This document shows positions 4,114 through 39,594 of a DNA stretch of 44,809 bases, piece after piece. The position numbers were made by a program, and so were the translations under genes. Every line of letters starts with the position of its first letter. The first letter of the stretch is position 1. Location: the IMG/VR virus record IMGVR_UViG_3300033148_002644, positions 1-44,809 of that record. One strand, written 5' to 3'. This stretch comes from a virus. The notes under the pieces are model-generated. The model was given only the letters and a program-made list of their open reading frames with translations, searched no databases and was not told the DNA's origin.

Positions 4114-5283
4114 ATGCCACACACATTACAGCACAAGCAAGAAGCAGAACGGAAACGCCAAGCGGCTGCGGCGAAGAAACGGAGAGATAAACTTGCGACA
4201 GAAATGTCACATGCTTTAGCTCCAACAATTGAGCAGCAAAATGTACTAGGACAGGAGCAAGCTATAATTGCAGCCGGGGGAACTGTACCTCCGCGTCAGC
4301 CTTTCTTTGGTGAACCGTTTAATACTACACCAAAATTTTACCATCAGCAAATTCCGCAACCGGTACAGACTCCTACAGTCTTGGGTGAATCTGGATTTAA
4401 AGTTCCGGCACTTAGTATATCACAGCCAAAGATAAAGCCGGAAGCAAAAAAGGTAGAGCCTAAAGGGCTTTCTTTTACTGCGCCGTTTATCTCAGCACCG
4501 AAGACCAAGCGGGCTGTTCCCACTGTACCTCCGGTGCAAGCTGTACTAGAGGAGTTTAAAAAGGGTGCGCCGAAGAAGGCTGACCCACTGGATCGTCTTG
4601 CTTATATCTTCCAGGCAATTGCCGGGGTAGGTATTGATCCAAACTCTTCTATAGGGCTTAACCTGCTTCGTATTGGCATGGCCAGCCTTGGTGGACTAGG
4701 AGCCTATAAGGAAGCGGAAGCTGGAGCAGAAGAAGCCTTTCAGGATGAACTACAGGCTTTTAATTTACAACAAACTCAGCTGCAACAAAGTCTGGCACAG
4801 CAAGAATTCAAAAATAAACTGGCTACACAAGGCCTGCTCGGGGAACAAGAACAGGCAGCATTCCAAGGCCAGGTCTTTGAAGCTGAGCAACTGCAACCCA
4901 GTGTCAAAGGTGGATTCTTATTGCAACCAGGGCTTGATGAATCTGGTTCACAGGTGAAAACGTCACTCACTGCGTTGCCTACAAAGGGGTCTGAGACCAC
5001 AGCAATGGTGCAGAAACTTATAGCACAGCAAGCTGCCTTAAATCCTCAAGCCTCCTATGGTGCATTATTATCTACACCGAAAGGGGCGGCAGCGGTGGAC
5101 TGGGCAGCGGAACAACTAGATCTACCTCCACAAGGCTTGGGAATAGAATGGTCTGAACAAGATCGGGCTAAGATTTCACAGTATATTCAGACTAATGAAA
5201 AAGAACTGTTTGATGAAACGGTACTTCCTTACCTCAATCTTACCGCCGGTATTCAGGCACTGGGAAAAAGGCCTATTAAATAA
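4114..5283 (+). CDS. Internal virion (ejection) protein, Gln-rich coiled coil
   Basis: 389 residues, preceded by an AGGAGATAAAG ribosome site. The N-terminus is strongly basic and helical (KQEAERKRQAAAAKKRRDK). Residues 60-150 are proline-rich with repeated P..P..K spacing, and residues 195-250 form a long Gln/Leu/Glu helix (LQQTQLQQSLAQQEF) typical of a coiled coil. It lies between the small and giant ejection proteins and so fits a gp15-type core component. I recognise no enzyme domain. The stop overlaps the next start by one base (TAATG). Confidence 0.6.
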   Translation: MPHTLQHKQEAERKRQAAAAKKRRDKLATEMSHALAPTIEQQNVLGQEQAIIAAGGTVPPRQPFFGEPFNTTPKFYHQQIPQPVQTPTVLGESGFKVPALSISQPKIKPEAKKVEPKGLSFTAPFISAPKTKRAVPTVPPVQAVLEEFKKGAPKKADPLDRLAYIFQAIAGVGIDPNSSIGLNLLRIGMASLGGLGAYKEAEAGAEEAFQDELQAFNLQQTQLQQSLAQQEFKNKLATQGLLGEQEQAAFQGQVFEAEQLQPSVKGGFLLQPGLDESGSQVKTSLTALPTKGSETTAMVQKLIAQQAALNPQASYGALLSTPKGAAAVDWAAEQLDLPPQGLGIEWSEQDRAKISQYIQTNEKELFDETVLPYLNLTAGIQALGKRPIK

Positions 5284-8200
5284 TGGCAAGTTTTGATGAG
5301 TGGCAGAAACAGAAAGGACTAGGTTTTGCAGTAGGTGAAAGACCTAAGACTGAGATTGATCTTGCCCCGGAAAAACAGGATGGAAGCAACATCCCCCTTG
5401 GTAATGCTGAGGGTATGTTTGAGTCTGCTAAGTGGGCAATCCCTCAACTCATTGGGATTGAGCCTCCGAAGAAGGTACGAGAATTTCAACAGGAGAGTCC
5501 ATGGCTGGCTCTTGCTGCAGAGGTTCCTGCGTTTGCAGTTCCCTATCTTGGTGCGGCCAGATTGTTTACTCTGGCTAGACTCGCCGCAGGGCTTAGTAAA
5601 GTTAGTCCCAAAGCGGGGGGAGCAATTACAAAGTTAGCCTCTCCTGCTGCTCTTGCTGAAGCTCCAATTAAAACGGGCGCGGCAAGAATGATTGTGCAAT
5701 TTGCTCCAATGGAAGCGGGGAGGGTAGCTATTGCTGCGGCGGCTGGGGAAGAAATTGCAGGGGAGCTAGGTACTGAATTTCGGGGCACAGGTGATGTTGC
5801 AATACAAGCTGGAGCAGATCTTATTCTTGGTGGTGCGCTAGGTGGAGTATTTTCTGGTTTAGCTTCAGCTGGAAAAAGAGATATATTGACACGGCCTTCA
5901 CAAATAGAACTGCGTCGTATGGAGACACAAAGGACTGATATACCACAAGCAGAGTTGCCCATGTTTGAGGCAAAGATAAATAAACTTCGGGCGCAAGTGC
6001 GGGGCGAGGTAATTCGTAAAGGTAGATATGTGGGAGATCTAGGGGAAGGTATACTTACTAAAGGATTGAATCGATTATTTAAACCTAAGATCTCTCCCGG
6101 ACTAGAACGTAAAATACTCAACCGGGGAGCCAGTCCCATCTTTTTCAAGGATGAGAAATTGCGGGATAATATCATGGCTCAAGCTGGTATCGCAGGTAAA
6201 GAAGCCTGGATGCAAACGCCAAGACATATACGCTCTCGTACTGTGAAGAATGACAAGGTTCTAGAGGGAATCCTGACAAAATCACTGGAATCAATTGACT
6301 CTACTCAAGGTTGGTTTATGCGCCAAGAAAGAGGCACTGGTCAATTTGTTATGGGTAAAAGAATTTCTCGTGGTGAGTGGGTTATATTTAAGACTGATTC
6401 ACCGGGGCAATTTTTACCTGAGCATGAAGTTTGGAAAAAAACTATGGAAGGGAAGGGCGCAGTATTTGGCCCTGTTGGTGCACCGGTGCGGGCGCTGAGC
6501 GCTCAGAAGGGTGCGAGTACTGAGGTCTACGATAATGTAGCAAGGTTTAAACAAGATGTACCTGTGTTTGACTATCGCGATTTAGATGTACGCAAAGGTA
6601 AGGTTAATGAATTAGCTGAGAAGATACTGAAGAGAACTAATCTTGGTGGAGATTCAGAACTAGCTACAAGGGCTGGCGGCTTTATTCGTAACACCCTTGC
6701 CCCGGCTATGTTTCAGTTTACAAACTCACCGACTGCCGGGCATATCTTTTCTGCAGCGAAAGTTGCAAGGGATTCTGCAGAGGCTGTAGCCGAAAGAATG
6801 TACCTAGGTGCAAGAACACTAGGGAAAGCCAAGACACCACTTGGGGCAATTTACAAAGGAGCGCAACCGGGGGAAGGTGGGATTAAAGCTCTAGTAGATA
6901 CACTGGCCAAGGATAAAGCTCAGTGGTCTGCGTGGCAACGAGCAGTGATTCGAGGGCTAAGTCCTAAAGAAGCTGTGGAGGAACTTGACCTTGGTGAAGC
7001 TGGGCTAAGTTTGCTCAAGAGGCTAGGTGAAGTAGATGCGTGGCAACTTGAGGGGATGAATAAAATAAGGGCCGCCACTGGTGAAGGTGCGGTGATCGGG
7101 AAAGCTAATCACTATATGATCTCAAGATTCTGGAAAGGGGATTGGAGAGTTCCGATAAGGGAAGGACATAATGTTGTAGGTTATGCTAGTGGGAAGAATA
7201 AACCAGCTGCAATTAGAGAAGCAAAGCTAATCGAGGAAGAAGCTGCAGCCGAAGGTCAAAGTTGGGTAGCCGGATTAGCGCATACTAAAGGTGATGGAGT
7301 CGATAGTGAGATAAAATTACTTGCGAAGCTAGGTGACCAAGATGCTAGATCCTTCGGAAAGATCTGGGAACGGGTTGCAATAGGGCGTGGACAACCTACA
7401 AGATTAAAAGAAAAACGTACCGGGGCTAAGTTCTTTACGGGTGATCGTGAGATCTGGACAAAGGATCAGGTCGAGAAAGCAATACTGAAACAGCTTCGGG
7501 ACTATCAACTTCATAATGCTCAGTTAAGTATTAAGGCATTGTATCAGGAAGAAATACAAGCCTTGGCTATGTCAGATGCAGTTACAGCTGAAGCATTAGC
7601 TAATCGTATTGGATTGATTTTTGGAGAACAGGGTGGGTTTAGTAAGACTATTAATAAGGTAGCCGATTCTGTTCTCAGTCCTTTGCTAGGGCAGAACTCT
7701 GCAAGCAAAATTACCAACACTGCGAACAAGTATCTTTTCCAGTGGACGCTAGGCTTTGTCAACACAGGCTATAATGTGGCAAACGCTTTGACCTTTGTTC
7801 AGACAGCCTTTCCCCACCTGAGCTTTCTTACTACCGCAGCTCCGGAAAGACTGGCTAAGTACTACACCTATTGGCCCGTGGATTCTGGTAAGTCTATGGA
7901 AGCGGTTGGTATGCTAGATATGATGAAGTTGACAAAGCAGAGTTTCCGAGAGCTAGGTAAACCTAGTGAGACATTGCTTAAGCATTTTACTAGAGGGGCA
8001 GAGGAAGGTGTCTGGGATCCAAAATTTGTTGAGGCATTCGTAGGTGAAAGCACAGAAAGAATTAAGCTCAAGAATATACTCAACGGTTCAGAACCATTTT
8101 CAAATTGGCTGGAAGGTGCGGCTACATGGGCACCTGGACTGACGGAAAAGTTCTCACGGGGGCAGGCGTTCTCAATGGGTCATATCTTTTTCAGGGATAT

Positions 8201-9218
8201 GATGGGGATTACCGATGATGAAATGCTGTATCAATTGACTAAGCAATTTGTAGAGAAGACACAATTTCTGTATTCTACTGGGGATCGGGCTAAGGTTATC
8301 ACCGGGCCATTGGGTAGTTCATTTGGCCTGTTCAAGAATTGGGTCATGCACCAAATGGGGTGGATGGCGGAATACACCGGGGAAGCGGTTCTCCGTGGCA
8401 ACTGGAAGCCCTTGGGGTGGACGTTGGGAAGTACGACCGCCGTGGGTGGCTTGGGCGCGTTGCCCTTCTATGGTGCAGCTGATGAAATGCAAAAGCACTT
8501 TAGTGATAAGTCACTTATGCTTCAGACTTATGAAATGTTCGGGGAGGAAAACCAGAAGGCAGCTGACACTGCGTTCTATGGCTTCCCGGCTATGTTAGGG
8601 TTCTCGATTCAGAATCAGGTCGCCGCTCCCTTTGCAGACCCCTGGCAAGATGCAAGCCGAATGATGAGCTTTGCTTGGTGGGATCGGATGAACTATGCTG
8701 GTAAAGCTATGGGGCAAGCGGTAGATACGTGGTCGGCTACAGGAGAGAGCCCTATTCGAGATGCACGAACAAGAGATCTGATGATGCGTGCGTTCGCGCC
8801 GAAGATGCTGTATCGTAGCACGCAAGCCGCGCAAGATTCCACGCTGAAAAGTTTAACCAACGGGTATCCAGTAGCAAAAGGGTTGTCGCTGAGTGAAAGA
8901 ATGTTATGGGCTGCAGGAGGAAATCCTACCTGGGTGGAGCAACGATTTGATGTGGCGCGGGAACTTTGGAAAGATCAGGATGCAAGAAGAGCTGCGGTAA
9001 CTAAGTATGGAAAGGAATGGGCAGGTCTAATTGCGGAGAGAGATTACACTGGGCTGAAACTATTAATCCGCCGGGCATTATATGAAGGGGTAGACATATC
9101 CTCCCTTGTTAAGTCCGGGAAAGCTATTTCGGCTAAAGGTCAGGAGGATATGATTGAACGGCAGTTTAAACCTGAGGAGATTCTGAAGTATCGGGAGGCA
9201 GGTCTTTATCAGCAATAG
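5283..9218 (+). CDS. Giant internal virion (ejection) protein
   Basis: 1311 residues, the largest gene. It is mostly helical and Ala/Lys/Glu-rich. Hydrophobic or amphipathic segments occur near residues 85-105, 150-165, 180-200 and 1040-1065, which could enter the cell envelope. I see no lysozyme or lytic transglycosylase motif, so unlike T7 gp16 it lacks an obvious peptidoglycan-cutting domain. Size, position as last gene of the late block, and adjacency to two other ejection-like proteins support the call. Its 3' end runs convergently into the small - strand gene at 9166-9456, overlapping by 53 bases. Confidence 0.65.
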   Translation: MASFDEWQKQKGLGFAVGERPKTEIDLAPEKQDGSNIPLGNAEGMFESAKWAIPQLIGIEPPKKVREFQQESPWLALAAEVPAFAVPYLGAARLFTLARLAAGLSKVSPKAGGAITKLASPAALAEAPIKTGAARMIVQFAPMEAGRVAIAAAAGEEIAGELGTEFRGTGDVAIQAGADLILGGALGGVFSGLASAGKRDILTRPSQIELRRMETQRTDIPQAELPMFEAKINKLRAQVRGEVIRKGRYVGDLGEGILTKGLNRLFKPKISPGLERKILNRGASPIFFKDEKLRDNIMAQAGIAGKEAWMQTPRHIRSRTVKNDKVLEGILTKSLESIDSTQGWFMRQERGTGQFVMGKRISRGEWVIFKTDSPGQFLPEHEVWKKTMEGKGAVFGPVGAPVRALSAQKGASTEVYDNVARFKQDVPVFDYRDLDVRKGKVNELAEKILKRTNLGGDSELATRAGGFIRNTLAPAMFQFTNSPTAGHIFSAAKVARDSAEAVAERMYLGARTLGKAKTPLGAIYKGAQPGEGGIKALVDTLAKDKAQWSAWQRAVIRGLSPKEAVEELDLGEAGLSLLKRLGEVDAWQLEGMNKIRAATGEGAVIGKANHYMISRFWKGDWRVPIREGHNVVGYASGKNKPAAIREAKLIEEEAAAEGQSWVAGLAHTKGDGVDSEIKLLAKLGDQDARSFGKIWERVAIGRGQPTRLKEKRTGAKFFTGDREIWTKDQVEKAILKQLRDYQLHNAQLSIKALYQEEIQALAMSDAVTAEALANRIGLIFGEQGGFSKTINKVADSVLSPLLGQNSASKITNTANKYLFQWTLGFVNTGYNVANALTFVQTAFPHLSFLTTAAPERLAKYYTYWPVDSGKSMEAVGMLDMMKLTKQSFRELGKPSETLLKHFTRGAEEGVWDPKFVEAFVGESTERIKLKNILNGSEPFSNWLEGAATWAPGLTEKFSRGQAFSMGHIFFRDMMGITDDEMLYQLTKQFVEKTQFLYSTGDRAKVITGPLGSSFGLFKNWVMHQMGWMAEYTGEAVLRGNWKPLGWTLGSTTAVGGLGALPFYGAADEMQKHFSDKSLMLQTYEMFGEENQKAADTAFYGFPAMLGFSIQNQVAAPFADPWQDASRMMSFAWWDRMNYAGKAMGQAVDTWSATGESPIRDARTRDLMMRAFAPKMLYRSTQAAQDSTLKSLTNGYPVAKGLSLSERMLWAAGGNPTWVEQRFDVARELWKDQDARRAAVTKYGKEWAGLIAERDYTGLKLLIRRALYEGVDISSLVKSGKAISAKGQEDMIERQFKPEEILKYREAGLYQQ

Positions 9219-9499: not shown

Positions 9500-10774
9500 C
9501 TATTCAGCCTTATTCAATGCAAGTGGGATAAAGAATCGTTCTCTGCCTGGAACATTCAGCACACCTTTAGGTACTACCTCTTTAATCATCTTAGCTCGTA
9601 GCATTGTGTTGACGAGAAAATCAATCTGGTTCGCGGGCACCTTTGAGTGGAGGAAGTGAACTAGCACTGACTCCCCAATTGGTTTCTTGTTACCAGAATA
9701 AAGTCTAACAAGATGCAAGAAGCACTCTTCGATTTCGGCGGCTTGGCCTCCGGAGCTGATCTCCTTAAAGATCTCCGGCATGATCTCTTCAGTCTCAAGA
9801 AGAAGCTCTTTCGCAGAAGTCCAATGGGCGAGGGTGATAACCATATGGTTGGATTCGCTGACGCTGAAGGCCATGGCAAGTTTCAGACAGTGCATGATAC
9901 GGCGAGCATTGTAGTGGAGAAGGCGCGAGTGCTGCGGGGCATCCAACGCACAACCATGCAAGTGCCAGTTCTCGATTGCTGCGGTAGCGTCTTCGGTGAT
10001 AGTGAAGTCACCTGTGAGGGCTGACATCTGTTTAAGATCGGAGATAAGATCATCCTTTAATTCTGGGTTATAGTTTTTCTTTCCCCAGAGAGTAACTCGT
10101 ACTGGCGTTCCTGCATATACCATAATAATACGTGAAGTGAATCCCATGCCATATGCAGCTTCAGGGAAAAGTTCCCCGAGATATTTTGGCTGCGTCCCCG
10201 ATATGATGCTAATGTGAGGCTTCTCAATGCGTAGTACTTCGCCTTTGGATCTGATTCGTTCCTCGAAGAGATCATAGCAGTTGTACAGTTCATTAAGTGC
10301 ACTGAGAAACCCAAGGTCGTGTGCTGGTAATAAGACACCAAGCTCCGGCACGGCACAGAGGAGGGAGTGGTAGCTGACATAGGTGTTTGTCTCCTTGTCG
10401 ATAATAGATTTGTGAGAGGACTCTTCGCTAAGCTGGTCAATGAGTCCCTTGTGTGTCATTGAGATTGGGGCAATGTTGAACTTGCCAGACGCTGCCCACA
10501 ATTCTCGCATAGGATTGATTGCTTGGTCTTTTCCGACCCCTGGAGGGGCGACGAAGAGCACAAACAGGTTAGGATACAATGGCCCGCCATTTGTTGTAAT
10601 CTGACAACGACGTTCAAGGGCACCGGCCACGCCTGAGACTGCTGCCCAACGTCTAAAAATCTCCGGGCTTGGCACATCCTTTGTGTACTCAAGGAAGGAC
10701 TGTATCCAGCAGGGAAGTGTTCGCACTTCTGGTTCTTGTTCTTTCGTCGTGCCCGGTGAATTCGCTGAGGCCAT
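9500..10774 (-). CDS. DUF3987-like ATPase (helicase/primase-associated)
   Basis: 424 residues. Residues about 75-85 read APPGVGKDQAI, a Walker A motif. Further on are AVPELGVLL (Walker B-like, E in place of DE) and SIISGTQPKYL (sensor-like), the order seen in DUF3987 proteins of phages and plasmids, which combine a P-loop with a replication role. The N-terminal PCWIQSFLEY...SPEIFRRWAAVSG also fits that family. It lies directly downstream of the polymerase, overlapping it by 86 bases, and no other replicative helicase is present, so it may serve as the fork helicase. The start has only a weak ribosome site (GAG at ten bases), so a later start is possible. Confidence 0.7.
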   Translation of the reverse strand: MASANSPGTTKEQEPEVRTLPCWIQSFLEYTKDVPSPEIFRRWAAVSGVAGALERRCQITTNGGPLYPNLFVLFVAPPGVGKDQAINPMRELWAASGKFNIAPISMTHKGLIDQLSEESSHKSIIDKETNTYVSYHSLLCAVPELGVLLPAHDLGFLSALNELYNCYDLFEERIRSKGEVLRIEKPHISIISGTQPKYLGELFPEAAYGMGFTSRIIMVYAGTPVRVTLWGKKNYNPELKDDLISDLKQMSALTGDFTITEDATAAIENWHLHGCALDAPQHSRLLHYNARRIMHCLKLAMAFSVSESNHMVITLAHWTSAKELLLETEEIMPEIFKEISSGGQAAEIEECFLHLVRLYSGNKKPIGESVLVHFLHSKVPANQIDFLVNTMLRAKMIKEVVPKGVLNVPGRERFFIPLALNKAE

Positions 10775-12188
10775 CTGGATTGTTCTCGCTTTTATGGTTC
10801 CAATTCCAGCCCACTTGGGCTTCTGAAGGTATGATTAATTCTCGATCGCCGAGTGGTATTGGTACGGTGATAAGATCAAGAACCTGAGGTATGATCTTAT
10901 CTTCATCTTTTTCTGGGTACTGAATTAAAATTGCATCGTGGATCTGTCCGAGCATTTGGACACAGTCTGCTTTCCATACCCGCCATGCACCGAGATTGAG
11001 AATGTCTCCAACGGTAGATTGCGGATTGTACGCAATTGCCTCACGCAATGTCGCATCGTCATTTCTGCGGCCAAAGAAAAACCTTTTTCTTCCGAGAAGT
11101 GTGGTGAGATGGCCGTGGATTTGTAGTTGCCTTGCAACTTCGTGGTGCCATTTACGAATACCAGGAAATGCGTCAAAGTAACTTCGCTGGAATCTTTGCA
11201 TAACTTCAGTTTCCACCTTAAGGTGGCGAGCCATAGTGTAAGGAGTGCCGTAGTAATTAGTGCCATGCCCCCCTCTTTTCGCCATATCTCGATATGTGAA
11301 GTCTCGGTAGAAAGTTTGTCCGGCGATAGATTTTTTATCATGGTAAAGTTCTCCTGTCCAGGGTAGGCCTGTCCACACCATACGACAGACGGTTGTATGT
11401 AAATCGCCAGATTCGCAAGCGTCAAGGTATTCAGTCTCACCGAAGAGCTGGTAGATGATTCCAGCTACAGCCCTAGACTCAGCTTGCTCAAGATCAATAT
11501 AGGCAAACTTCATACCGGGATCAGCTACGAAGATGGTGCGAAGTTTCTCGGTAATGTTTTGTAAGTTGGTACCAGTACCAAAGGCATTTGCCGAACTTGA
11601 CCATCTACCTGTTTCCGTCCCGGCAACATTATATGATGCCCTAATTCTACCATCTTTGTCAACCCCACTACGAAGAACAGAAAGCAGTTTTGTATGGTCG
11701 CGAAGGGCAAGGATAGTGGATATGATTGGGCGAGACATAAAGTGCGGGCGAAGATTTTCCAAGGCGTTGCGGTCAGTTGATGGCCCATACTTGCCGTTGG
11801 CTCCCCGCTTTGTTTGGACAGGTAGGCCCATGATTGAGTAGAGAAAGTCTTTAAGTTGTTTGGGTGAGTTAGGGTTAAGATCCTGTTCCCAGACAGCATT
11901 AGACATACGGTTAAGGTTGGCTTGAAGTAACTTTTTCTTTGCTTCAAACTCAAGGATCATTGTGGTCTTGAGTGCTGAGTCAATCCGTACCCCACGAGTC
12001 ATCATCTCAAGTGCGGGCGCTTGCATTGCACGCTCGAATGTGTAGATGAGATCAGCATTCTTAGTGACCTGTGGATCTTGAGCAAGGCCAACTTCATGAG
12101 TGACGCAACAATCAAGCGCGTTGTAACACCAGTGGGTTTGCTCAGGATCGAGAGTTGGAAGCTCGGCGGAGTTAATTATGAGAGCCAT
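10689..12188 (-). CDS. polA: DNA polymerase family A, with only the Exo III end of the exonuclease
   Basis: 499 residues. Polymerase motif A is DLEQAESR (232-239), motif B starts R300-x3-K304 and ends NYYG (311-314), and motif C is QIHDAIL with the catalytic HD at 417-418. The DxE-containing part of the 3'-5' exonuclease is missing. Instead the protein begins with about 20 residues and then WCYNALDCCVTHEV, whose Y22-x3-D26 matches Exo III (Y/D) of DEDDy exonucleases. The rest of that exonuclease is on the gene at 12428-13501, so the enzyme is probably a two-chain polymerase. Oddities are Ala after the HD of motif C where Glu is usual, and His308 at about the F762 position of E. coli Pol I. 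An AGGAG lies ten bases before the ATG. Confidence 0.92.
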   Translation of the reverse strand: MALIINSAELPTLDPEQTHWCYNALDCCVTHEVGLAQDPQVTKNADLIYTFERAMQAPALEMMTRGVRIDSALKTTMILEFEAKKKLLQANLNRMSNAVWEQDLNPNSPKQLKDFLYSIMGLPVQTKRGANGKYGPSTDRNALENLRPHFMSRPIISTILALRDHTKLLSVLRSGVDKDGRIRASYNVAGTETGRWSSSANAFGTGTNLQNITEKLRTIFVADPGMKFAYIDLEQAESRAVAGIIYQLFGETEYLDACESGDLHTTVCRMVWTGLPWTGELYHDKKSIAGQTFYRDFTYRDMAKRGGHGTNYYGTPYTMARHLKVETEVMQRFQRSYFDAFPGIRKWHHEVARQLQIHGHLTTLLGRKRFFFGRRNDDATLREAIAYNPQSTVGDILNLGAWRVWKADCVQMLGQIHDAILIQYPEKDEDKIIPQVLDLITVPIPLGDRELIIPSEAQVGWNWNHKSENNPDGLSEFTGHDERTRTRSANTSLLDTVLP

Positions 12189-12424
12189 TCTTCTAATCTC
12201 CTATGCAGCCTTGCATTAAAGTATCTTCGCCAAACATAGCTGCGAATAATTGCGGTCACTGTAAAGATGCCGACGATGCCGAGATTCTGCACCATGTTTG
12301 TTTCGATGCCATAGAGTGGCCCCGCAATGTATTCCCATACAAGGAGGGAGATCACAAAGCCGCTAGCGATGTTGAGGTTGATCTCGATAAAGGACTCGAG
12401 ACGGGATTGGGCGTGGGATTTCAT
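12176..12424 (-). CDS. Small two-helix membrane protein (DUF7220-like) inside the split polymerase
   Basis: 82 residues: ESFIEINLNIASGFVISLLVW is a first membrane segment and LGIVGIFTVTAIIRSYVWRRYF a second, ending in basic residues. The pattern N-x3-GF, P-L-x-G, then IFT-x-x-x-IIRSYVxRRxF matches a small membrane-protein family common in phages, which I know as DUF7220 with unknown function. It starts three bases after the exonuclease stop and overlaps the polymerase start by 13 bases, so it sits precisely between the two halves of the proofreading domain. Whether it tethers the polymerase to the membrane or is an unrelated insertion cannot be told here. Confidence 0.8.
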   Translation of the reverse strand: MKSHAQSRLESFIEINLNIASGFVISLLVWEYIAGPLYGIETNMVQNLGIVGIFTVTAIIRSYVWRRYFNARLHRRLEEWLS

Positions 12425-12427
12425 GAG

Positions 12428-13501
12428 TTAGTCATCCTTCTTTATTAGATCTTTCCCTTTTACTTTCCTCATCTCTTTCCAACTTGCCTCGTTGGTGTAG
12501 ATAGATCCGAGAAAGCCAAGACCTTTGGGAAGTTCAGGTTGTAGTGCATGGGCCTGGAGCATAGTGTCCAGGGTTGAATTTTTCGGGGCTATTCCCATCT
12601 TACGCCATAGCCACTGGATGTCATACATTCCGTTCTGGGCTTCTTTAGGCATATGGGTTTGGAGTATTTGCTTTACCCACTGCCAAGCTGTAATTTCATC
12701 CTTCGGGTTGTTCCAGTAGGAGAAGCTGGGGTTCCGTCTATCTACGAAAGGGATACACAGCGCATGGTAGGGATCTCCCGCGAAGCCTATGCAGGTAATC
12801 ATGTCGTGTGCAGTCTCGATGTCGTATGTGATCTTCTCAGCTTTAGTCAGATGCACATGAAAGAATTGTTCGATGTCAGCCAGAGTAGGTTCCAACCAGA
12901 TGTCTCTTGCTGGCCGGACGATTTCAGGGAACTCTACTTCCCTCTTTGCTTTCATCAGATCAGCAAGAACCACAGGCCGGTTGCCCCACTGACGTAGAAC
13001 AGCAGCAGGGTGAAAAGTGGGAAGCACTTTGTAGCCAGGAACAAGGGTAGACTCCGTAACGGTTCCTCGGATTGTAGTGATCTTTGGATTTTGGAGCAAG
13101 GCCCATGTAGCTGTGCCCCCAAGAGCAATAATAAGATTCGGTTTGACATTGGAGATCTCCTCAGCAAGCCGGGTAAGTTCAGGAAGATACTCCGGTCGAA
13201 TGTATTTACCCTGGCGAAGTGCTGGGTAGGGGTAGGACTTGCCCCCGACCTCAGCCTTCTTACCACAGAAAGCATCCAGTTTATTTCCTGGTGGGCGAGA
13301 AAGGAATACACTGGTGAGGTAGCATTCCTTTCTGTCTATACCTGCATCAGCGAGCATCCGGGTAAGTTCCTGACCAGAGGCACCGACAAAAGGTTGGTGC
13401 AGCAGCTCCTCTTGTTTGCCGGGGGCCTCACCTACGATTACAATGCGGGCATTGACTGGGCCTGTTGGTTTGCAACAAGGGTTAGGAACAGGAGGTGTCA
13501 A
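12428..13501 (-). CDS. Uracil-DNA glycosylase fused to 3'-5' exonuclease (Exo I and II)
   Basis: 357 residues. Residues 20-45 hold GEAPGKQEE...PFVGASG, motif 1 of family 4/5 uracil-DNA glycosylases, and 163-170 hold FHPAAVLR, motif 2; the iron-sulphur cysteines of family 4 are incomplete. From about 200 an RNaseH-fold exonuclease begins: YDIET (D227, E229) is Exo I, and NGMYDIQWL (D294) is Exo II. The chain stops at KKDD just before the Exo III helix, which is found at the start of the polymerase gene. The start is TTG with GGAG eight bases upstream, overlapping the previous stop. The fusion puts uracil recognition next to proofreading. Confidence 0.88.
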   Translation of the reverse strand: MTPPVPNPCCKPTGPVNARIVIVGEAPGKQEELLHQPFVGASGQELTRMLADAGIDRKECYLTSVFLSRPPGNKLDAFCGKKAEVGGKSYPYPALRQGKYIRPEYLPELTRLAEEISNVKPNLIIALGGTATWALLQNPKITTIRGTVTESTLVPGYKVLPTFHPAAVLRQWGNRPVVLADLMKAKREVEFPEIVRPARDIWLEPTLADIEQFFHVHLTKAEKITYDIETAHDMITCIGFAGDPYHALCIPFVDRRNPSFSYWNNPKDEITAWQWVKQILQTHMPKEAQNGMYDIQWLWRKMGIAPKNSTLDTMLQAHALQPELPKGLGFLGSIYTNEASWKEMRKVKGKDLIKKDD

Positions 13502-13950
13502 GATATTCTCTCCGCTTTTGTTGTGCCTTTAGTAAGAACTCTGTCATCCAGGTCTTTCCGGTTGTGGTAGCTGTTTGACATAATCTTCGCGCAGCATATC
13601 ATGTGATCTACGTGAGGCAGGCCAGATTCAGGATCACAATTCTCTCCATTAAGGAAGGCATCATAGTGTCTTCGTAGACTAGCGGCAGACTCTTGCCAAG
13701 ACATTCCTTTGAGCCAATTGCCGAGGGAATATTTAACCAGACCTTTCTCCCAAACGGCAGCCTCACCGATTTGAACTTCGCGGCCAAGGGAGTTAAGGTC
13801 TAGCCGTGGCTTGCCGGTGTTGTGACGGAGACCTTCAATCTTGCTAAAAGCTTTTGAAAGAACCGGAGCATCACAAACAATACAATATCCACTGTCTGTT
13901 GTTTCAATTAGTTTTCCCGGAGCAGGAAAACAAGCCTTACAGATGCTCAT
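13498..13950 (-). CDS. dATP/dGTP diphosphohydrolase-like protein (DUF5664 type) with zinc-finger N-terminus
   Basis: 150 residues. The N-terminus has C4-x2-C7 and C23-x2-C26, a likely zinc site. Then RHNTGKPRLDLNSL, KYSLGNWLKGM, ASLRRHYDAFLNGE and DPESGLPHVDHMICCA follow in the order known from the DUF5664 family, all-alpha NTP-pyrophosphohydrolase relatives described as dATP/dGTP diphosphohydrolase N-terminal domains. The E/H/D residues of the helices are likely metal ligands. It lies between dUTPase and the glycosylase-exonuclease with ATGA overlaps on both sides, fitting control of the dNTP pool. Substrate is inferred only. Confidence 0.72.
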   Translation of the reverse strand: MSICKACFPAPGKLIETTDSGYCIVCDAPVLSKAFSKIEGLRHNTGKPRLDLNSLGREVQIGEAAVWEKGLVKYSLGNWLKGMSWQESAASLRRHYDAFLNGENCDPESGLPHVDHMICCAKIMSNSYHNRKDLDDRVLTKGTTKAERIS

Positions 13951-14453
13951 TTTCCTGTACTCCCGAAGCCAGCTTCACCACGAGAAGTCGTGTTCAGTTC
14001 TTCCACGGGTAGCCATTGGACATCAACGTAGGGAAGAATAAGTAGCTGAGCGATTCGATATCCCGGCTGGATTTCATACGACTCGTGTAGATTAGGCGAC
14101 GCTAGTGTAAGCCCGACAAAGATTTCCCCACGGTAGTCTGGGTTAATGAGACCTGGTGTGTTTGCGGGAGCTACAAGGTGATTGATTCCTAGACCACTGC
14201 GAGGTATGACCAGACCGCAGAAGGAGTTGGGAATCTCAATCGCAACTCCAGTCGGGATTCGCGCCGCACAATGAGACTGCACAGTGTATGCGGTTGTGCC
14301 AGCAGCATAGAGATCCCAAGCAGCGGCAAAGGGTGAACCCTTAGTTGGGAGGGTGTGGCAATGGGGAAGCTCCTTCATGCGGATGAGCATGGGAACAGAG
14401 TCATGCACTTGAGAGTTTTTAGGTTCAGTCTTGTCGGGGGTTTTTCCAAACAT
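13947..14453 (-). CDS. dut: dUTPase (trimeric type) with Asn at the catalytic Asp position
   Basis: 168 residues. All five motifs are visible: 1 AAAWDLYAA (43-51), 2 PRSGLG (84-89), 3 GLINPDYRG (101-109), 4 GYRIAQLL (131-138), 5 RGEAGFGSTG (158-167). In motif 3 the usual ID-x-x-Y carries the water-activating aspartate; here codon AAC gives Asn104 instead, a one-base change from GAC. Without it the enzyme may be inactive, slow, or used for binding. It is in an operon with ThyX (TAATG overlap), so the pair would normally lower dUTP and supply dTMP. The first 20 residues are an extra polar extension. Confidence 0.93.
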   Translation of the reverse strand: MFGKTPDKTEPKNSQVHDSVPMLIRMKELPHCHTLPTKGSPFAAAWDLYAAGTTAYTVQSHCAARIPTGVAIEIPNSFCGLVIPRSGLGINHLVAPANTPGLINPDYRGEIFVGLTLASPNLHESYEIQPGYRIAQLLILPYVDVQWLPVEELNTTSRGEAGFGSTGK

Positions 14454-15103
14454 TAGTTATTCTCCTTAATTGCTGTTGCTATATTGGGGAATTGAGAATT
14501 GAAGATGTCACGAATTGCCTCGGCAATCTCACGGTGCTCAAGCTGAACGTGGTCATCACAGCGGATTGCAAGGTAGTGAAGCCAGCTGCGGATTGATCCG
14601 GTCATGTAAAGTGTGGTCTGGGTAGTAAGAGGAAGAACCATTCGGGCACACTCTTTGGCAACACCATCTGCGAGTAGCTGTCCGTACAAATTTTGGCAGG
14701 ATTCTAAGTGGTCACGCACACCTTGGTGGGCATCATGCTCCCACGGCAGGTGTGCTGTACTGCTTTGTCTGTTATGCTCAGCTTGATAACGTAGTTGCAC
14801 CGGTTCCATGTCGTTAACATTGGCATACCGCTGAGAGAATTCCTGGAACGAGAAAGATCTGTGACGAAGAATTTGTGTGCCGATTGCGCGGGAAGTTTTA
14901 ATCTCCACTGTCATTGAGCTGTGTTCAAAGGGCGACCAGTGTTTATGCTTGACAAGATAAGCGATTAGATCTGATGCTGTCTTCATATTCATTTGGTTGC
15001 TAGGGTTGGATGCTCGCGCAATGTAGACGATGAACTCTTCTGCGTTCAGAAGTTTCCCCTCTATGAGCATTGGTTGGGTCAGGGCTCTCAGTGTTACTTC
15101 CAT
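14453..15103 (-). CDS. thyX: Flavin-dependent thymidylate synthase ThyX
   Basis: 216 residues, the normal family size. The signature RHRSFSFQEFSQRY at 80-93 matches RHRxxSxxExSxRY, which binds FAD and dUMP. The C-terminal SIRSWLHYLAIRCDDHVQLEHREIA region supplies the second nucleotide-binding part, with an RxxxxHxxxRxxxxxQxE-like pattern. It converts dUMP to dTMP using methylenetetrahydrofolate and NADPH. AGGAG lies seven bases before the ATG, and the gene overlaps the dUTPase start, so the two are coupled. Confidence 0.95.
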   Translation of the reverse strand: MEVTLRALTQPMLIEGKLLNAEEFIVYIARASNPSNQMNMKTASDLIAYLVKHKHWSPFEHSSMTVEIKTSRAIGTQILRHRSFSFQEFSQRYANVNDMEPVQLRYQAEHNRQSSTAHLPWEHDAHQGVRDHLESCQNLYGQLLADGVAKECARMVLPLTTQTTLYMTGSIRSWLHYLAIRCDDHVQLEHREIAEAIRDIFNSQFPNIATAIKENN

Positions 15104-15104
15104 C

Positions 15105-16514
15105 TTAGTTCTCCTCAGTTAGTTTAGCAAGATTGCTTGCACGAGTGAAGGCATCTGCGGCTGTCTCGGCAAACTCGGTGTTCATCTCCAGGCCTAACAC
15201 AAATTTCGCACCAAGGCTATCGGCGGCCCGGAGGGCAGATCCTGAGCCACACGTAGGGTCGAGTAGTGTGGTGTGCTCGTCAACCAGCATTCGGAAGAAA
15301 TGCCTGAGCATGGGTTCAGGTTTCTCACTTGCATGGATTCGGTTTCGAGCTGTAGGTGCCGCATAACTATTCGCAACAGCTTGGACAACTTGTCGGTCTC
15401 CTCGTGAGATAAAGAGTGCGGTTTCATAAGTGTAGCGTGGGCCACGGTTGTAGTCGGGGAGGATACCTTTGTTATCTGACTTGTGCCAAATGAGTGGGCG
15501 GGGGTTGATGGTAAGGGTTGGCGCTTGAACTGAAAAGAACTGCCGTGTTCGTTCGTGCATCTCGTGATCTCCGGCAAGCCAGAAAACAATGTGGGCAGAG
15601 GGGAGAAGGATTCGATCAAGGTTCGAGCATAGTGCGCCAAGTAGTTCCCAATAGGTATCTGCGCTGTCATCGTATTCTCCCCAGGCTGCGGTGTTCCCTT
15701 GGTCTGATTTATCATGCCCTATTCCGTAGGGAAAATCACAATGGAGTAGATTGAATTTTGGGCCGGAATACTCCTCGGCCCAAGTTAGGAATGAGAGGTT
15801 GAGGATGGGGGAGGCAGGTCTTCTTTGTTCTGGCTTGGGAACGGCTAGATACTCTGTATTGTCGTTTCCTCCCGAAAGGTCAATATCAATACTAGATGTA
15901 CCAATGTCAGGAAGATTACTATCTTTTATAATGTCATCCATGCTGGCAAGTTCATCTGCGATAGCCCGAGATTGATTGCGCTGGATTGTGTTGTATGCAG
16001 CGGTTAGTCCACCAGAAGCCACAACACGAGGGTTCTCAGCGTTAAGTTCCTTCGCTACAGAGAGATGCTTACTTGCGGTGCCGGGGGCAATGCCAAGGGC
16101 TGATGCGGTGCGGGAGACTCCCCACTCCCGATCGAGGTTTTCTTGGAGTTGGTGGTAGCGTAGAATGGCACGGGCAGAATCTTGCCATGTCATCTCTGTT
16201 CGTTTAATGTTCTCGGAAAGTTCAAGGGCTTCAAGTTCTTCGGGAGCCACATCGTAGGCAAAATGACAAGGGATAGTTGTCCAGGTCTCTTCGCCTTTAG
16301 CCATGAGCAGTAGTGCATAAGCTTGTAGTCTATGCTCCCCTGCAATTAATTTATTTGTGTCCCGCTCAACTAAGATCGGGTGGATTAGCCCGTGGATAAA
16401 AATATCCACAGCGAGTTCACGTACTTTACCCTCGTTAATTGTAGAACGTTGTCTGGAGTCTCGGTCGCAGATGATCTGACCGAGAGGGATAAACGAGGTT
16501 TGGTAATCTATCAC
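15105..16514 (-). CDS. ParB-like domain fused to a beta-class DNA methyltransferase
   Basis: 469 residues from a GTG start with AGGAG seven bases upstream; the longer TTG-started reading has no such site. The N-terminus is ParB/Srx-like: LIAGEHRLQAY (near 55-65) is box II, ELSENIKRTEMTWQDSARA follows, then a helix-turn-helix VSRTASALGIAPGTASKHLS. The C-terminal half is a methyltransferase: DFPYGIG near 260 is the catalytic D-x-P-Y motif IV and DPTCGSG at 419-425 is motif I. Motif IV before motif I is the beta arrangement (N6-adenine or N4-cytosine). ParB-methyltransferase fusions are known in phages and probably modify phage DNA against restriction. Target site unknown. Confidence 0.88.
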   Translation of the reverse strand: MIDYQTSFIPLGQIICDRDSRQRSTINEGKVRELAVDIFIHGLIHPILVERDTNKLIAGEHRLQAYALLLMAKGEETWTTIPCHFAYDVAPEELEALELSENIKRTEMTWQDSARAILRYHQLQENLDREWGVSRTASALGIAPGTASKHLSVAKELNAENPRVVASGGLTAAYNTIQRNQSRAIADELASMDDIIKDSNLPDIGTSSIDIDLSGGNDNTEYLAVPKPEQRRPASPILNLSFLTWAEEYSGPKFNLLHCDFPYGIGHDKSDQGNTAAWGEYDDSADTYWELLGALCSNLDRILLPSAHIVFWLAGDHEMHERTRQFFSVQAPTLTINPRPLIWHKSDNKGILPDYNRGPRYTYETALFISRGDRQVVQAVANSYAAPTARNRIHASEKPEPMLRHFFRMLVDEHTTLLDPTCGSGSALRAADSLGAKFVLGLEMNTEFAETAADAFTRASNLAKLTEEN

Positions 16515-16524
16515 GACTGAACTC

Positions 16525-16593
16525 CTATAACGGAAAGGGTTGAGGGCCACAAGTAGCAAGCATAAGGGTGAGCATTGTTATCACTAATTGCAT
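16525..16593 (-). CDS. Possible 22-residue hydrophobic leader peptide
   Basis: The frame MQLVITMLTLMLATCGPQPFPL runs from an ATG with GGAG eight bases upstream and stops at a TAG that overlaps the ribosome site of the methyltransferase gene. It is a single hydrophobic stretch, with LATC resembling but not matching a lipobox (Thr at -1). It may be a leader whose translation controls the next gene, a tiny membrane peptide, or chance. The good ribosome site and exact placement are the only evidence. Confidence 0.4.
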   Translation of the reverse strand: MQLVITMLTLMLATCGPQPFPL

Positions 16594-36367: not shown

Positions 36368-38347
36368 ATGATTGATGAGGTTGAACTTTTAGAAGGACTG
36401 GGAATAGAACCCAAGGATAAGTGGCCTACGGTTTCGGAACAGGATTCCTCTGTACCTCCGATAGACCGATTGAAACCTGGAACTAAGCTACATTCAAAGG
36501 TTTTAGATTATCTTGTCTCAAGGCTTGACATGTCTGAAAGAGAGATGCAAAAGTTCTATCCTCGTTGGCGGGCGGGCGAGAAACGAACACAAGCCTATAT
36601 TGATTTGCCTGATTGGGAAAAGACCCTGAAGGATATGAACGATTCAGGCAAAGCTCCGAAAGTGGTTTCGGTAACGGTGCCATATACCTTTGCGACTATT
36701 TGGACAATTGTAACCTATCTCATCCACACTTTTGCTGGGCGTAAGCCGATGTTTCAGGTTTCTTCCTACAAGAAAGAATCTATCAAAGCAGCTGAGATGA
36801 TGGAAAAGGTTATGCAGTATAATGCTGACCACACAAGATTAATCAAACATCTGTTTCAGTATTTCCAGGATGGTGAACAATACGGTGTTGGTATTCTGCG
36901 TACTCGATGGGAAAAGACAACGGCGAAGCGTACTGTGTGGACAACGCAACAGACCGGAGCGGGTTTCTTTGGTCTTGGTGGAGGCTCTAAACGGATAAAA
37001 ACTCGCCAAGATCGGGTGATCTACGCGGGTAATGAGGTTGTATCTCAAGACCCTTTTATGTTCTTTCCCGATCCTCGCGTGCCGATGCATGAGGTGAACA
37101 AACGTGGTGAGTTTGTCTTCTGGCGAAATTTCGACGGACTGCATTCTTTAAAGCGGGAAGAGTCTGCAGGGAGATTTAAATGGATAGCAAACGCTGGTAA
37201 CCTTCCACACAATAAGGTGACAATCGGGGACTCTTCCCGAAGTCTGCTTGCTGCAGGTACGTCTCACCCAGGCCAACGTGAGAATATGTATGATGGCAAA
37301 GTGGGGAACTACATCCAAATAGACCAAGGAACTGTGGAGATCATTCCGGCGGAACTTGGGCTAGGTGTTTCAACTAAACCTGAAAAGTGGCTATTCACTA
37401 TAGCGAATAAGCATCAAATTGTACAAGCGGAACCTTTCGACTATGACCACGGTTCTCATCCTGTCGCAGTAATTGAACCGTACACTATGGGCTATGGTTT
37501 TGGTCAAGCAGGAATTAGTGATTATCTTGGGCCGACTCAGGATACATTAAGTTGGCTGATCAATTCTCACATTGACAATGTGCGTACCGCACTGAATAAT
37601 ATGTTCATCGTTGATCCATCTATGGTTGAAATGCAGGATTTAAAGAACCCTGAGCCGGGTAAAATTATTAGGCTGAAGCAAACCGCAATGGGTAAAGATG
37701 TGCGTTCTGCGTTGCAGCAACTTGGCGTCACAGATGTAACAAGTTCCCATATGAGGGACTTTGAACTCTTTATGAAAATGGGAGATTCACTCTCAAGTAT
37801 CACTGATAATATTCGAGGTCTGCAAGATTCTGGCGGACGTAAGACTGCAACGGAAGTAAGAACGTCAGGTGAGGCCTCAGCTTCACGTCTTGCTTCCCAT
37901 GCCCGGCTGATTTCAGCCCAGGGTATTGTTGATCTTGCCGAACAGATGAGTCTGAATAACCAGCAATTTCTGGACGAGGAATTTTATGTACAGTTGCTTG
38001 GTGAGCAAGGAAAAGAAGTAGGACAGCAAATTAACCCTGAACAGCTTGTGGGGGATTTTTACTATCCTGTACACGATGGCACTTTACCTATTGATCGTGT
38101 TGCCATGCTGGACATCTGGAAGGAGATATTTCTCGGTGTTGCGCAAGATGAACAATTGAGATCTGAGTACTCACTTCCGAAGATTTTTGAATACCTTGCT
38201 GAACTTGGCGGGGCAAAGAATATAGATCAGTTTAAAGTTAACCTTAATGCAGCGCCGCAGGGGGCCGATCCTACTCAGGCGATTCAAGCGGGCAATGCTG
38301 TTCCGGTTGACATAGCACAAGGAAGGGGGCCGCAAGCTCTTGTCTAA
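36368..38347 (+). CDS. Portal protein
   Basis: 659 residues, in the range of podovirus portals. EREMQKFYPRWRAGEKRTQAYID near the start, VTVPYTFATIWTIVTYLIHTFAGRKPMFQV near 100-130, QYFQDGEQYGVGILRTRWEK near 165, GFGQAGISDYLGPTQDTLSWLINSHIDNVRTALN near 375, and a helical SRLASHARLISAQGIVDLAEQMSL crown-like segment are typical. It precedes the scaffold and capsid genes as expected. The portal forms the DNA entry ring. The ribosome site is poor, so translation may be coupled to the preceding gene, whose stop it directly follows. Confidence 0.85.
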   Translation: MIDEVELLEGLGIEPKDKWPTVSEQDSSVPPIDRLKPGTKLHSKVLDYLVSRLDMSEREMQKFYPRWRAGEKRTQAYIDLPDWEKTLKDMNDSGKAPKVVSVTVPYTFATIWTIVTYLIHTFAGRKPMFQVSSYKKESIKAAEMMEKVMQYNADHTRLIKHLFQYFQDGEQYGVGILRTRWEKTTAKRTVWTTQQTGAGFFGLGGGSKRIKTRQDRVIYAGNEVVSQDPFMFFPDPRVPMHEVNKRGEFVFWRNFDGLHSLKREESAGRFKWIANAGNLPHNKVTIGDSSRSLLAAGTSHPGQRENMYDGKVGNYIQIDQGTVEIIPAELGLGVSTKPEKWLFTIANKHQIVQAEPFDYDHGSHPVAVIEPYTMGYGFGQAGISDYLGPTQDTLSWLINSHIDNVRTALNNMFIVDPSMVEMQDLKNPEPGKIIRLKQTAMGKDVRSALQQLGVTDVTSSHMRDFELFMKMGDSLSSITDNIRGLQDSGGRKTATEVRTSGEASASRLASHARLISAQGIVDLAEQMSLNNQQFLDEEFYVQLLGEQGKEVGQQINPEQLVGDFYYPVHDGTLPIDRVAMLDIWKEIFLGVAQDEQLRSEYSLPKIFEYLAELGGAKNIDQFKVNLNAAPQGADPTQAIQAGNAVPVDIAQGRGPQALV

Positions 38348-38621
38348 AATAACTTTTGACCAATTGATGGACACTGGTGAATTACTCCCCAGTGACGCAA
38401 AAGAAATACGTACGTTGCTGGGTAACAAGTCTCTACAGCGCGCGCTGGGCAATCTACTCGTTCTTGCTGAAGGAATGGATCGTTTAAGCTCGTGTGACTT
38501 AGAGGCGCAAGAGGGACTTTATGCGGCGTTGCGTCAGAAAGGCACTGTTGGCGGTATTCGTCTTGCAGTGGAACAATTTATTGACCTAGCCGAGGAAATA
38601 GAAGATGAGCCTATTACGTAA
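38340..38621 (+). CDS. Small acidic head-assembly-associated protein
   Basis: 93 residues from a TTG that overlaps the portal end by eight bases, with AGGAAGGGGG upstream. Helical and acidic: FDQLMDTGELLPSDAKEIRTLLGNKSLQRALGNLLVLAEGMD and a C-terminus DLAEEIEDEPIT. It lies between portal and scaffold and overlaps the scaffold start by 17 bases, so it is probably co-produced with them. Function unknown; a small scaffold partner is possible. Confidence 0.65.
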   Translation: MSKITFDQLMDTGELLPSDAKEIRTLLGNKSLQRALGNLLVLAEGMDRLSSCDLEAQEGLYAALRQKGTVGGIRLAVEQFIDLAEEIEDEPIT

Positions 38622-39582
38622 ATTACACTATAAATATCTTGAGGAAGCCGCAGAGGGGGATGCTGGTAATTCAGCCCCTGTGCAGACTACTCCGTCACCC
38701 GAAGATTTGGGCACAACTGAAGTTGTGGATGGCGGAACCGAACTAGACTTTGATGGGATCAACGATGTGTTAGCTTTTGATCCTTTCGCTGAGGGAGCAG
38801 AGACAGATTCAAATTCTGTTGAGTCTTCCGAATCTACCGAAGTTGCTCAACCAGATGGCAGTGAGGCAACTCCTGAGCCTGGGAAAACTGAGACCGAGGT
38901 AGAAGCAGAAACTGATGAAGATCCGACTGTAGCTCAGGTAGAAGAGTCACCTGAACTGGTTTTACTTCGTCAGCAACTTGATACACAGAAGCAACTAATT
39001 GAGCAACTGCAACAAGGGGATGCAACTACTCCGACAGAAGGTGAAAATGCTGATGAGACTAAACCTAGTACTCCAGCATATGAATTTACCATCCCAGAGC
39101 AGATGATGACTCTTGTTGATTCTGAAGATGCTGCAGAACGTCGGCAGGGAATCGGAGCACTTGCTCAAGGTGTAGCTCAAACTGTACACGCGCAAGTAAT
39201 GGAACAGGTACAGGGTATGTTTACCCAAGTTGTACCTCAAACCGTTATGAGTGTTGTGCAGCAACAGAACACTGCGAAGGCAATCTTCGATGACTTTTAT
39301 GGGCAGAATCCTGAACTTAATCGGGAGGAACTAAAGCCTTTAGTTGTTCAAGTTGCGGAAGCAGCATTTAAAGAATCCAAGGCGCAAGAATGGTCACCTG
39401 CTTTGCGGGATACCATTGCGACTCGGGTTAAATCAATACTTGGTCAAGGGAAAACTACAACACCAGCAAAGGTTCCTGCGAAGGCTCCTGCTGGGCCTAG
39501 CTCAGGCAGACAATCTCGGGGAAATAATGCTTCGACACCTGCGGCTGCTCAAGCTGATGATGTAGCTTCCCTACTATTTTAG
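38605..39582 (+). CDS. Scaffolding protein
   Basis: 325 residues. Acidic and low-complexity over 20-110, then a coiled coil ELVLLRQQLDTQKQLIEQLQQ, a helical core (QGVAQTVHAQVMEQVQGMFTQVV), and a basic C-terminus (TPAKVPAKAPAGPSSGRQSRG) of the kind that binds capsid protein. Location directly before the capsid gene and the composition are typical of podovirus scaffolds, which leave the head during maturation. Confidence 0.82.
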   Translation: MSLLRKLHYKYLEEAAEGDAGNSAPVQTTPSPEDLGTTEVVDGGTELDFDGINDVLAFDPFAEGAETDSNSVESSESTEVAQPDGSEATPEPGKTETEVEAETDEDPTVAQVEESPELVLLRQQLDTQKQLIEQLQQGDATTPTEGENADETKPSTPAYEFTIPEQMMTLVDSEDAAERRQGIGALAQGVAQTVHAQVMEQVQGMFTQVVPQTVMSVVQQQNTAKAIFDDFYGQNPELNREELKPLVVQVAEAAFKESKAQEWSPALRDTIATRVKSILGQGKTTTPAKVPAKAPAGPSSGRQSRGNNASTPAAAQADDVASLLF

Positions 39583-39594
39583 GAGAAACAAAGA

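Follow-up and report, generated by a model that had tools for sequence, protein, structure and literature searches.

The virus sequence examined here, IMG/VR record IMGVR_UViG_3300033148_002644 (positions 1 to 44,809; this whole stretch of 44,809 nucleotides (nt) is called the window), carries a family-A DNA polymerase whose proofreading exonuclease site appears to be divided between two genes. On the minus strand, a gene for a uracil-DNA glycosylase (UDG) domain joined to an exonuclease part (chain 1) is followed by a gene for a small membrane protein of the DUF7220 family and then by a gene for the polymerase (chain 2). Chain 1 starts at a TTG codon overlapping the stop codon of the upstream gene (TTGA) and ends in ...LIKKDD at a real stop codon. 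Chain 2, which begins with MALIINSAELPTLDPEQTHWCYNALDCC, is read in a different frame from chain 1, and its start overlaps the DUF7220 gene by 13 nt. A first-pass annotation, made from the letters of the window alone, had chain 1 stop at KKDD and the polymerase reading resume after an 82-residue membrane protein; both the coordinates and the reading were right. All three genes have a Shine-Dalgarno (SD)-like sequence ahead of their start, and chain 1 and chain 2 are probably produced from one tight operon.

The Pfam scores for UDG in chain 1 (91.8 bits), DUF7220 in the small protein (72.6 bits, cut-off 28) and DNA_pol_A in chain 2 (136.6 bits) are all far above the cut-offs. A single PHROG profile, phrog_17, spans both chains, with its positions 479-800 on chain 1 and 809-1245 on chain 2, a step of nine positions. 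Chain 1 scores 103.5 bits against TIGR00758, below the curated cut-off of 125.3, and contains the family-4 UDG motifs GEAPGKQEE and HPAAVLR; the UDG fold was also recovered by Foldseek. AlphaFold models were made of single chains, each on its own, and have mean predicted local distance difference test (pLDDT) values of 92.3 for chain 1 and 91.6 for chain 2 (AF2). In the chain 1 model the exonuclease strands are present, the last 10 residues are disordered and the protein ends ahead of the Exo III helix; the chain 2 model opens with a long helix (residues 15-40) that bears Y22 and D26. Foldseek matched chain 1 to UDGs (1l9g, 1ui1), to Klenow fragment (1kln) and to a fused phage polymerase (9qhs), and chain 2 to the large fragments of Bst, Taq and Klenow (template modelling (TM) score about 0.7).

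When the two chains were aligned with Escherichia coli PolA and with one-piece phage homologues, the DEDDy residue set (the DxE of Exo I, the D of Exo II and the Yx3D of Exo III) was complete but spread over both chains (Table 1). The gene is broken in the stretch, a loop, ahead of the Exo III helix. The alignment thus confirms the first-pass placement of Exo I and Exo II on the UDG fusion and of Exo III at the opening of the polymerase chain. No Yx3D was found in chain 1 after D294, and therefore there is no second Exo III there; the N-terminus of the polymerase chain aligns with the Exo III of PolA and not with another domain. No second polymerase or DnaQ-type exonuclease was found among the window proteins scanned, which did not include every open reading frame (ORF). 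An unsplit form had been predicted to be a UDG-Exo-Pol fusion, and such homologues in one ORF do exist, for example in Microcystis phage Mel-JY34 and in MW202489.

Table 1. Coordinates of the split polymerase locus in the window; counts are of relatives that keep the residue.
Feature	Position	Strand	Details
Chain 1: family-4-like uracil-DNA glycosylase domain and N-terminal part of the DEDDy 3'-5' exonuclease (Exo I, Exo II)	12428..13501	-	357 amino acids
Exo I D227 codon	12821..12823	-	PolA D355 by alignment; 80/80
Exo I E229 codon	12815..12817	-	PolA E357 by alignment; 80/80
Exo II D294 codon	12620..12622	-	PolA D424 by alignment; 81/81
GAAGGA, SD-like	12435..12440	-	10 nt ahead of the ATG of DUF7220; lies in the chain 1 tail that codes for KKDD
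DUF7220 small membrane protein, slot occupant in the window	12176..12424	-	82 amino acids; two hydrophobic stretches (hydropathy); Pfam PF23858
AGGAG, SD-like	12198..12202	-	9 nt ahead of the ATG of chain 2; lies in the final part of the DUF7220 gene
Chain 2: Exo III helix, then family-A polymerase domain	10689..12188	-	499 amino acids
Exo III Y22 codon (chain 2)	12123..12125	-	PolA Y497 by alignment; 81/81
Exo III D26 codon (chain 2)	12111..12113	-	PolA D501 by alignment; 81/81

The split is not particular to the window. When viral contigs were scanned with chain 2, 16 relatives came up; from 592 stretches matched in a profile scan, 80 loci were returned, 2 of these loci being already in the set. 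After duplicates were removed, 81 loci with both chains remained, including the window and the isolated Caulobacter phage Kuura, and some are close to one another. In all 81 the break is at the same point, and it is therefore not due to chance; three further split loci (L149-L151) were found in bacterial metagenome bins. In Kuura (OQ067476), which grows and forms plaques (PMC9959647), the UDG-Exo gene is annotated as "hypothetical" and the other half as a separate "DNA polymerase".

The catalytic residues of the exonuclease are invariant wherever the region is present (Table 1), while mean column identity is just 46% and 49%, strong evidence at the level of sequence that the site is under selection in both pieces. 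The motif A and motif C aspartates of the polymerase are likewise kept in chain 2 (D232 in 81/81 and D418 in 80/80 relatives). Since the catalytic residues are invariant wherever present, a proofreading site built from two chains is the best reading, and the earlier proposal of a DEDDy site divided between two polypeptides is to that extent borne out. It is possible to imagine that the exonuclease is instead vestigial, so that chain 1 would act as a stand-alone uracil-DNA glycosylase and chain 2 would polymerise without proofreading; the break does lie inside the exonuclease domain, and a mutual-information coevolution test on 64 sequences gave no clear enrichment of pairs between chain 1 and the Exo III helix. 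However, a vestigial exonuclease is quite unlikely given DxE, Exo II and Exo III residues this constant in chains that otherwise diverge so much, the UDG motif being by contrast degenerate in some members like Kuura and L021.

The degenerate UDG motifs, at the N-terminus of chain 1 in some relatives (L017, L021 and L001), read GDCPTDGD in Kuura, GDYPHQQD in L021 and GRSLGAEE; in these relatives the exonuclease residues are invariant, and the UDG may be inactive. Directly upstream of chain 1 in the window (13498-15103) are a dATP/dGTP diphosphohydrolase-like gene, a dUTPase gene and a gene for ThyX thymidylate synthase. Together these would exclude uracil from DNA, and they adjoin the gene for a uracil glycosylase.

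Phage polymerase genes are known to harbour group I introns and inteins, and for the split OM43 phage polymerase an intron has been considered (PMC10580990). It is nonetheless extremely unlikely that one polypeptide is made here after all, whether by intron splicing, an intein, ribosome bypass or a frameshift. In the window chain 2 has its own start and SD sequence, and in other loci the inserts between the chains reach about 1.9 kb and are unrelated in content, or the stop codon of chain 1 simply overlaps the start of chain 2 (L043 and L104). As to the individual routes, no Rfam match at the gathering score was found for a group I intron in the window and nine HNH- or insert-bearing loci, and some loci have no insert at all; no intein family, split or otherwise, appeared in Pfam or NCBIfam scans of either chain; and bypass or frameshifting is disfavoured by the differing frames as well as by the size of the inserts and the bare overlaps.

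The gene or genes between the chains vary from locus to locus, and the junction is now a slot with changing content. The commonest occupant, in 31 of the 81 loci, is a DUF7768/deoxyribosyltransferase-like gene, related to nucleoside 2-deoxyribosyltransferases. The others are genes for a small hydrophobic protein (9 loci), an HNH endonuclease (8), DUF7220 (7) and a DUF1937-type protein (7), followed by MazG-like, methyltransferase-like and unknown genes. Three loci (L043, L046, L104) have no gene in the slot. The slot genes were called mechanically, as the longest non-overlapping ORFs, and thus some small ones may be miscalled; the count for DUF7220 does not include L080, L081 and L083, where a frame for it can be read downstream of the HNH gene. 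An SD-like motif is found in the chain 1 tail at 64 of the 81 loci, and the first slot gene mostly starts a few nt from the chain 1 stop. Before chain 2 an SD motif is found at 42/81 loci against 17% of all ATGs, a biased figure because the start was chosen among several candidates.

Given the variable slot, together with the unrelated neighbourhoods in which DUF7220 is found elsewhere, the membrane protein is not a conserved partner of the split polymerase. In five sampled phages its neighbours are exonuclease, methylase, helicase or terminase-region genes, and no split polymerase is shown there; no report on DUF7220 was found in the literature searched, which did not extend to subscription papers. 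The first-pass annotation had raised the possibility that the membrane protein anchors the replisome. This does not agree with the relatives, in most of which no DUF7220 was called in the slot, and an anchor as a family feature is rejected. A role of DUF7220 as the agent of the split is likewise not supported, since relatives broken there have a variety of other genes in the slot or no gene at all. A dedicated partner holding the two-piece polymerase at the membrane, with its place between the halves being functional, might still be argued from the exact position of the gene and its overlap with both neighbours, from its seven called occurrences and the frame still readable behind the HNH genes of L080/L081/L083, and from the other small hydrophobic proteins in the slot (clusters c1 and c10). 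Such a partner is very unlikely when the slot most often holds the gene for a soluble deoxyribosyltransferase-like protein and is empty in three loci. Most likely the DUF7220 protein of the window is a passenger with its own function, a later cargo and not a part of the polymerase.

The break goes back to an ancestor of the large clade to which the window belongs. In a tree of 99 rows, a quick one with some long branches in which the position of the window inside the split clade is not firmly placed, the split loci form a clade of 75 rows and the mostly one-piece loci a clade of 22 rows, each with a Shimodaira-Hasegawa-like approximate likelihood ratio test (SH-aLRT) value of 100, and there are five changes of state. 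The split is ancestral to its clade; none of the descendants sampled has lost the break or the proofreading residues of either piece. Fused homologues and the tree together place one coding region in relatives against two here, at a conserved site. Slot contents turned over on the same tree, with HNH genes in 8 of the 75 rows and 7 changes, 16 changes for DUF7768 and 5 for DUF7220.

The mostly one-piece clade has been broken as well. In L119 an HNH gene (phrog_3377, E=8.8e-28) interrupts the polymerase at the very exonuclease point where the split clade is broken, and in L139 and L145 an HNH_3 gene interrupts the UDG-Exo linker. A third break point, before polymerase motif A, is found in L020, L141, L142 and L147; the intervening genes do not encode endonucleases, that of L147 being methyltransferase-like and those of L020 and L141 unknown. 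Within the split clade, an HNH gene lies between the halves in 8 relatives, and a small group of them shows how it may have come there. The slots of L073, L079 and L082 hold DUF7220; in the very similar L080/L083 and L081, two different HNH genes are inserted between the chain 1 stop and the DUF7220 start. On the chain 2 side these loci are 94-100% identical to L073. The last 180 nt of chain 1 in L081 differ from L073 by 29 synonymous and 4 non-synonymous codon changes; between L073 and L079 there are none. Insertion of an HNH gene with mostly silent conversion of its flank is the pattern expected of homing with protection of the occupied site. From these relatives we infer that the first break was made by an HNH homing endonuclease gene.

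An alternative is that ordinary mutation first gave overlapping stop and start codons, and that endonucleases and cargo later entered the ready-made junction. L043, L046 and L104 are indeed split without an insert, and with an SD-like motif common in chain 1 tails and slot genes starting near the stop, the junction would be an easy landing site; the same doubt was raised for the split polymerase gene gp43 of phage 25 (PMC2988022). However, the insert-free loci look derived because they are nested on the tree among insert-bearing relatives, and in the fused clade the breaks at two sites coincide with HNH genes. An origin by plain mutation is therefore possible but rather improbable.

Taken together, this locus is quite probably a permanent gene in pieces, a phage UDG-Exo-Pol family-A polymerase broken by an HNH gene, with halves that reassemble and a junction that is now a cargo slot. 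Under this scenario, an ancestral HNH homing endonuclease gene would have landed in the loop before the Exo III helix and broken the gene. Chain 1 with the UDG and Exo I/II would bind chain 2 with Exo III and the polymerase, rebuilding one DEDDy metal site and one polymerase. The junction would then have turned into a slot whose content changes between relatives, DUF7220 being translated from the ribosome-binding signals in the flanking gene ends. Precedents set by phage Aeh1 (split NrdA) and phage 25 (gp43A/gp43B) lead us to expect that the halves assemble. The first-pass suggestion of a selfish insertion that was tolerated is close to this account, except that the original inserts were likely HNH genes and DUF7220 looks like a later cargo in a break common to the clade.

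Several points weigh against a working gene in pieces made by an endonuclease. The slot of the window holds no endonuclease, which leaves relatives as the evidence on how the break arose; a gene that was split beforehand could be invaded later, as the doubt over gp43 of phage 25 illustrates. Conservation of residues is evidence of selection, not of assembly or activity, the coevolution test described above gave no clear signal, and most of the split loci are derived from metagenomes.

The reassembling two-piece polymerase could also have been selected for being split rather than merely tolerated, as a separable chain with UDG and Exo I/II might detach, or set the dose of, proofreading and uracil surveillance. 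We regard selection for the split as unlikely; were it true, fidelity would be adjustable through the ratio of the chains, which the slot genes could influence.

Elsewhere in the window, a ParB-N-like stretch (a Pfam match under the cut-off) is joined to an N6/N4 DNA methyltransferase in one protein (15105-16559), the portal and major capsid proteins match SU10 families (36368-40833; PF23899 and PF17236), and a 1311-residue internal-virion-like protein has a weak PLxRFG match (5283-9218).

Genes in pieces are already known, including split phage polymerases (Aeh1 NrdA and T4-type gp43A/B being the models). Within the literature searched, which left out subscription papers, no split inside the exonuclease of a family-A polymerase was found. 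Within that literature it is new that a UDG-Exo-Pol enzyme is interrupted in its proofreading site and that this break is fixed in a large clade, that a member of the sister clade was independently broken there in association with an HNH gene, and that the junction serves as a slot for changing genes. Previously, enzymes split by homing endonucleases had come to light in individual phages or small groups of them; in the present case the replicative polymerase is in two pieces throughout a clade, and its sister clade offers both unsplit enzymes and a fresh break at that point. An essential enzyme can thus stay broken and apparently still work. The system allows testing how a harmful insertion is made permanent, how a nuclease site built from two chains stays functional and how a junction turns into a gene slot. 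There is also a caution for annotation, as gene finders may label the first half of such an enzyme "hypothetical", as in Kuura, and a DUF inside a replication gene need not belong to that gene.

Several known systems resemble the locus in part. The slot protein of the window is a clear member of DUF7220 (PF23858), a family found elsewhere in unrelated gene neighbourhoods. Kuura, an isolated podophage, has the same split, but its slot holds two other small genes and not DUF7220. Bacillus phage SPO1 gp31-type proteins and phiLo (9qhs) have a UDG-like domain upstream of the exonuclease and family-A polymerase in fused form, and unlike the window they are unsplit at its break point. The OM43 phages MEP401 and MEP402 and related metagenomic genomes have two ORFs for a family-A polymerase, separated by a small ORF (PMC10580990). 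As here, the split by a small gene is common to most of a phage group; however, their exonuclease domain is whole, the break is in the polymerase domain (as in L020, L141 and L147) and no UDG domain is reported. In the T4-related phages 44RR and 25 the DNA polymerase is split into gp43A and gp43B, and the phage 25 halves co-purify and polymerise (PMC2988022). That system likewise has a DNA polymerase in two genes with variable content between, but it is of family B and has no UDG fusion, whereas the enzyme here is of family A, with tens of relatives and many kinds of occupants. In Aeromonas phage Aeh1, nrdA is split by the HNH endonuclease gene mobE and the split NrdA is fully active (PMC2988022). 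Both there and here an essential enzyme is encoded in two parts separated by another gene, the cut falling in a region critical for function, and the activity of the halves is published for Aeh1 and inferred for the window. The locus described here differs in that the enzyme is a polymerase, the cut lies in the proofreading site, the split is clade-wide and the occupant in the window is a membrane protein and not an endonuclease.

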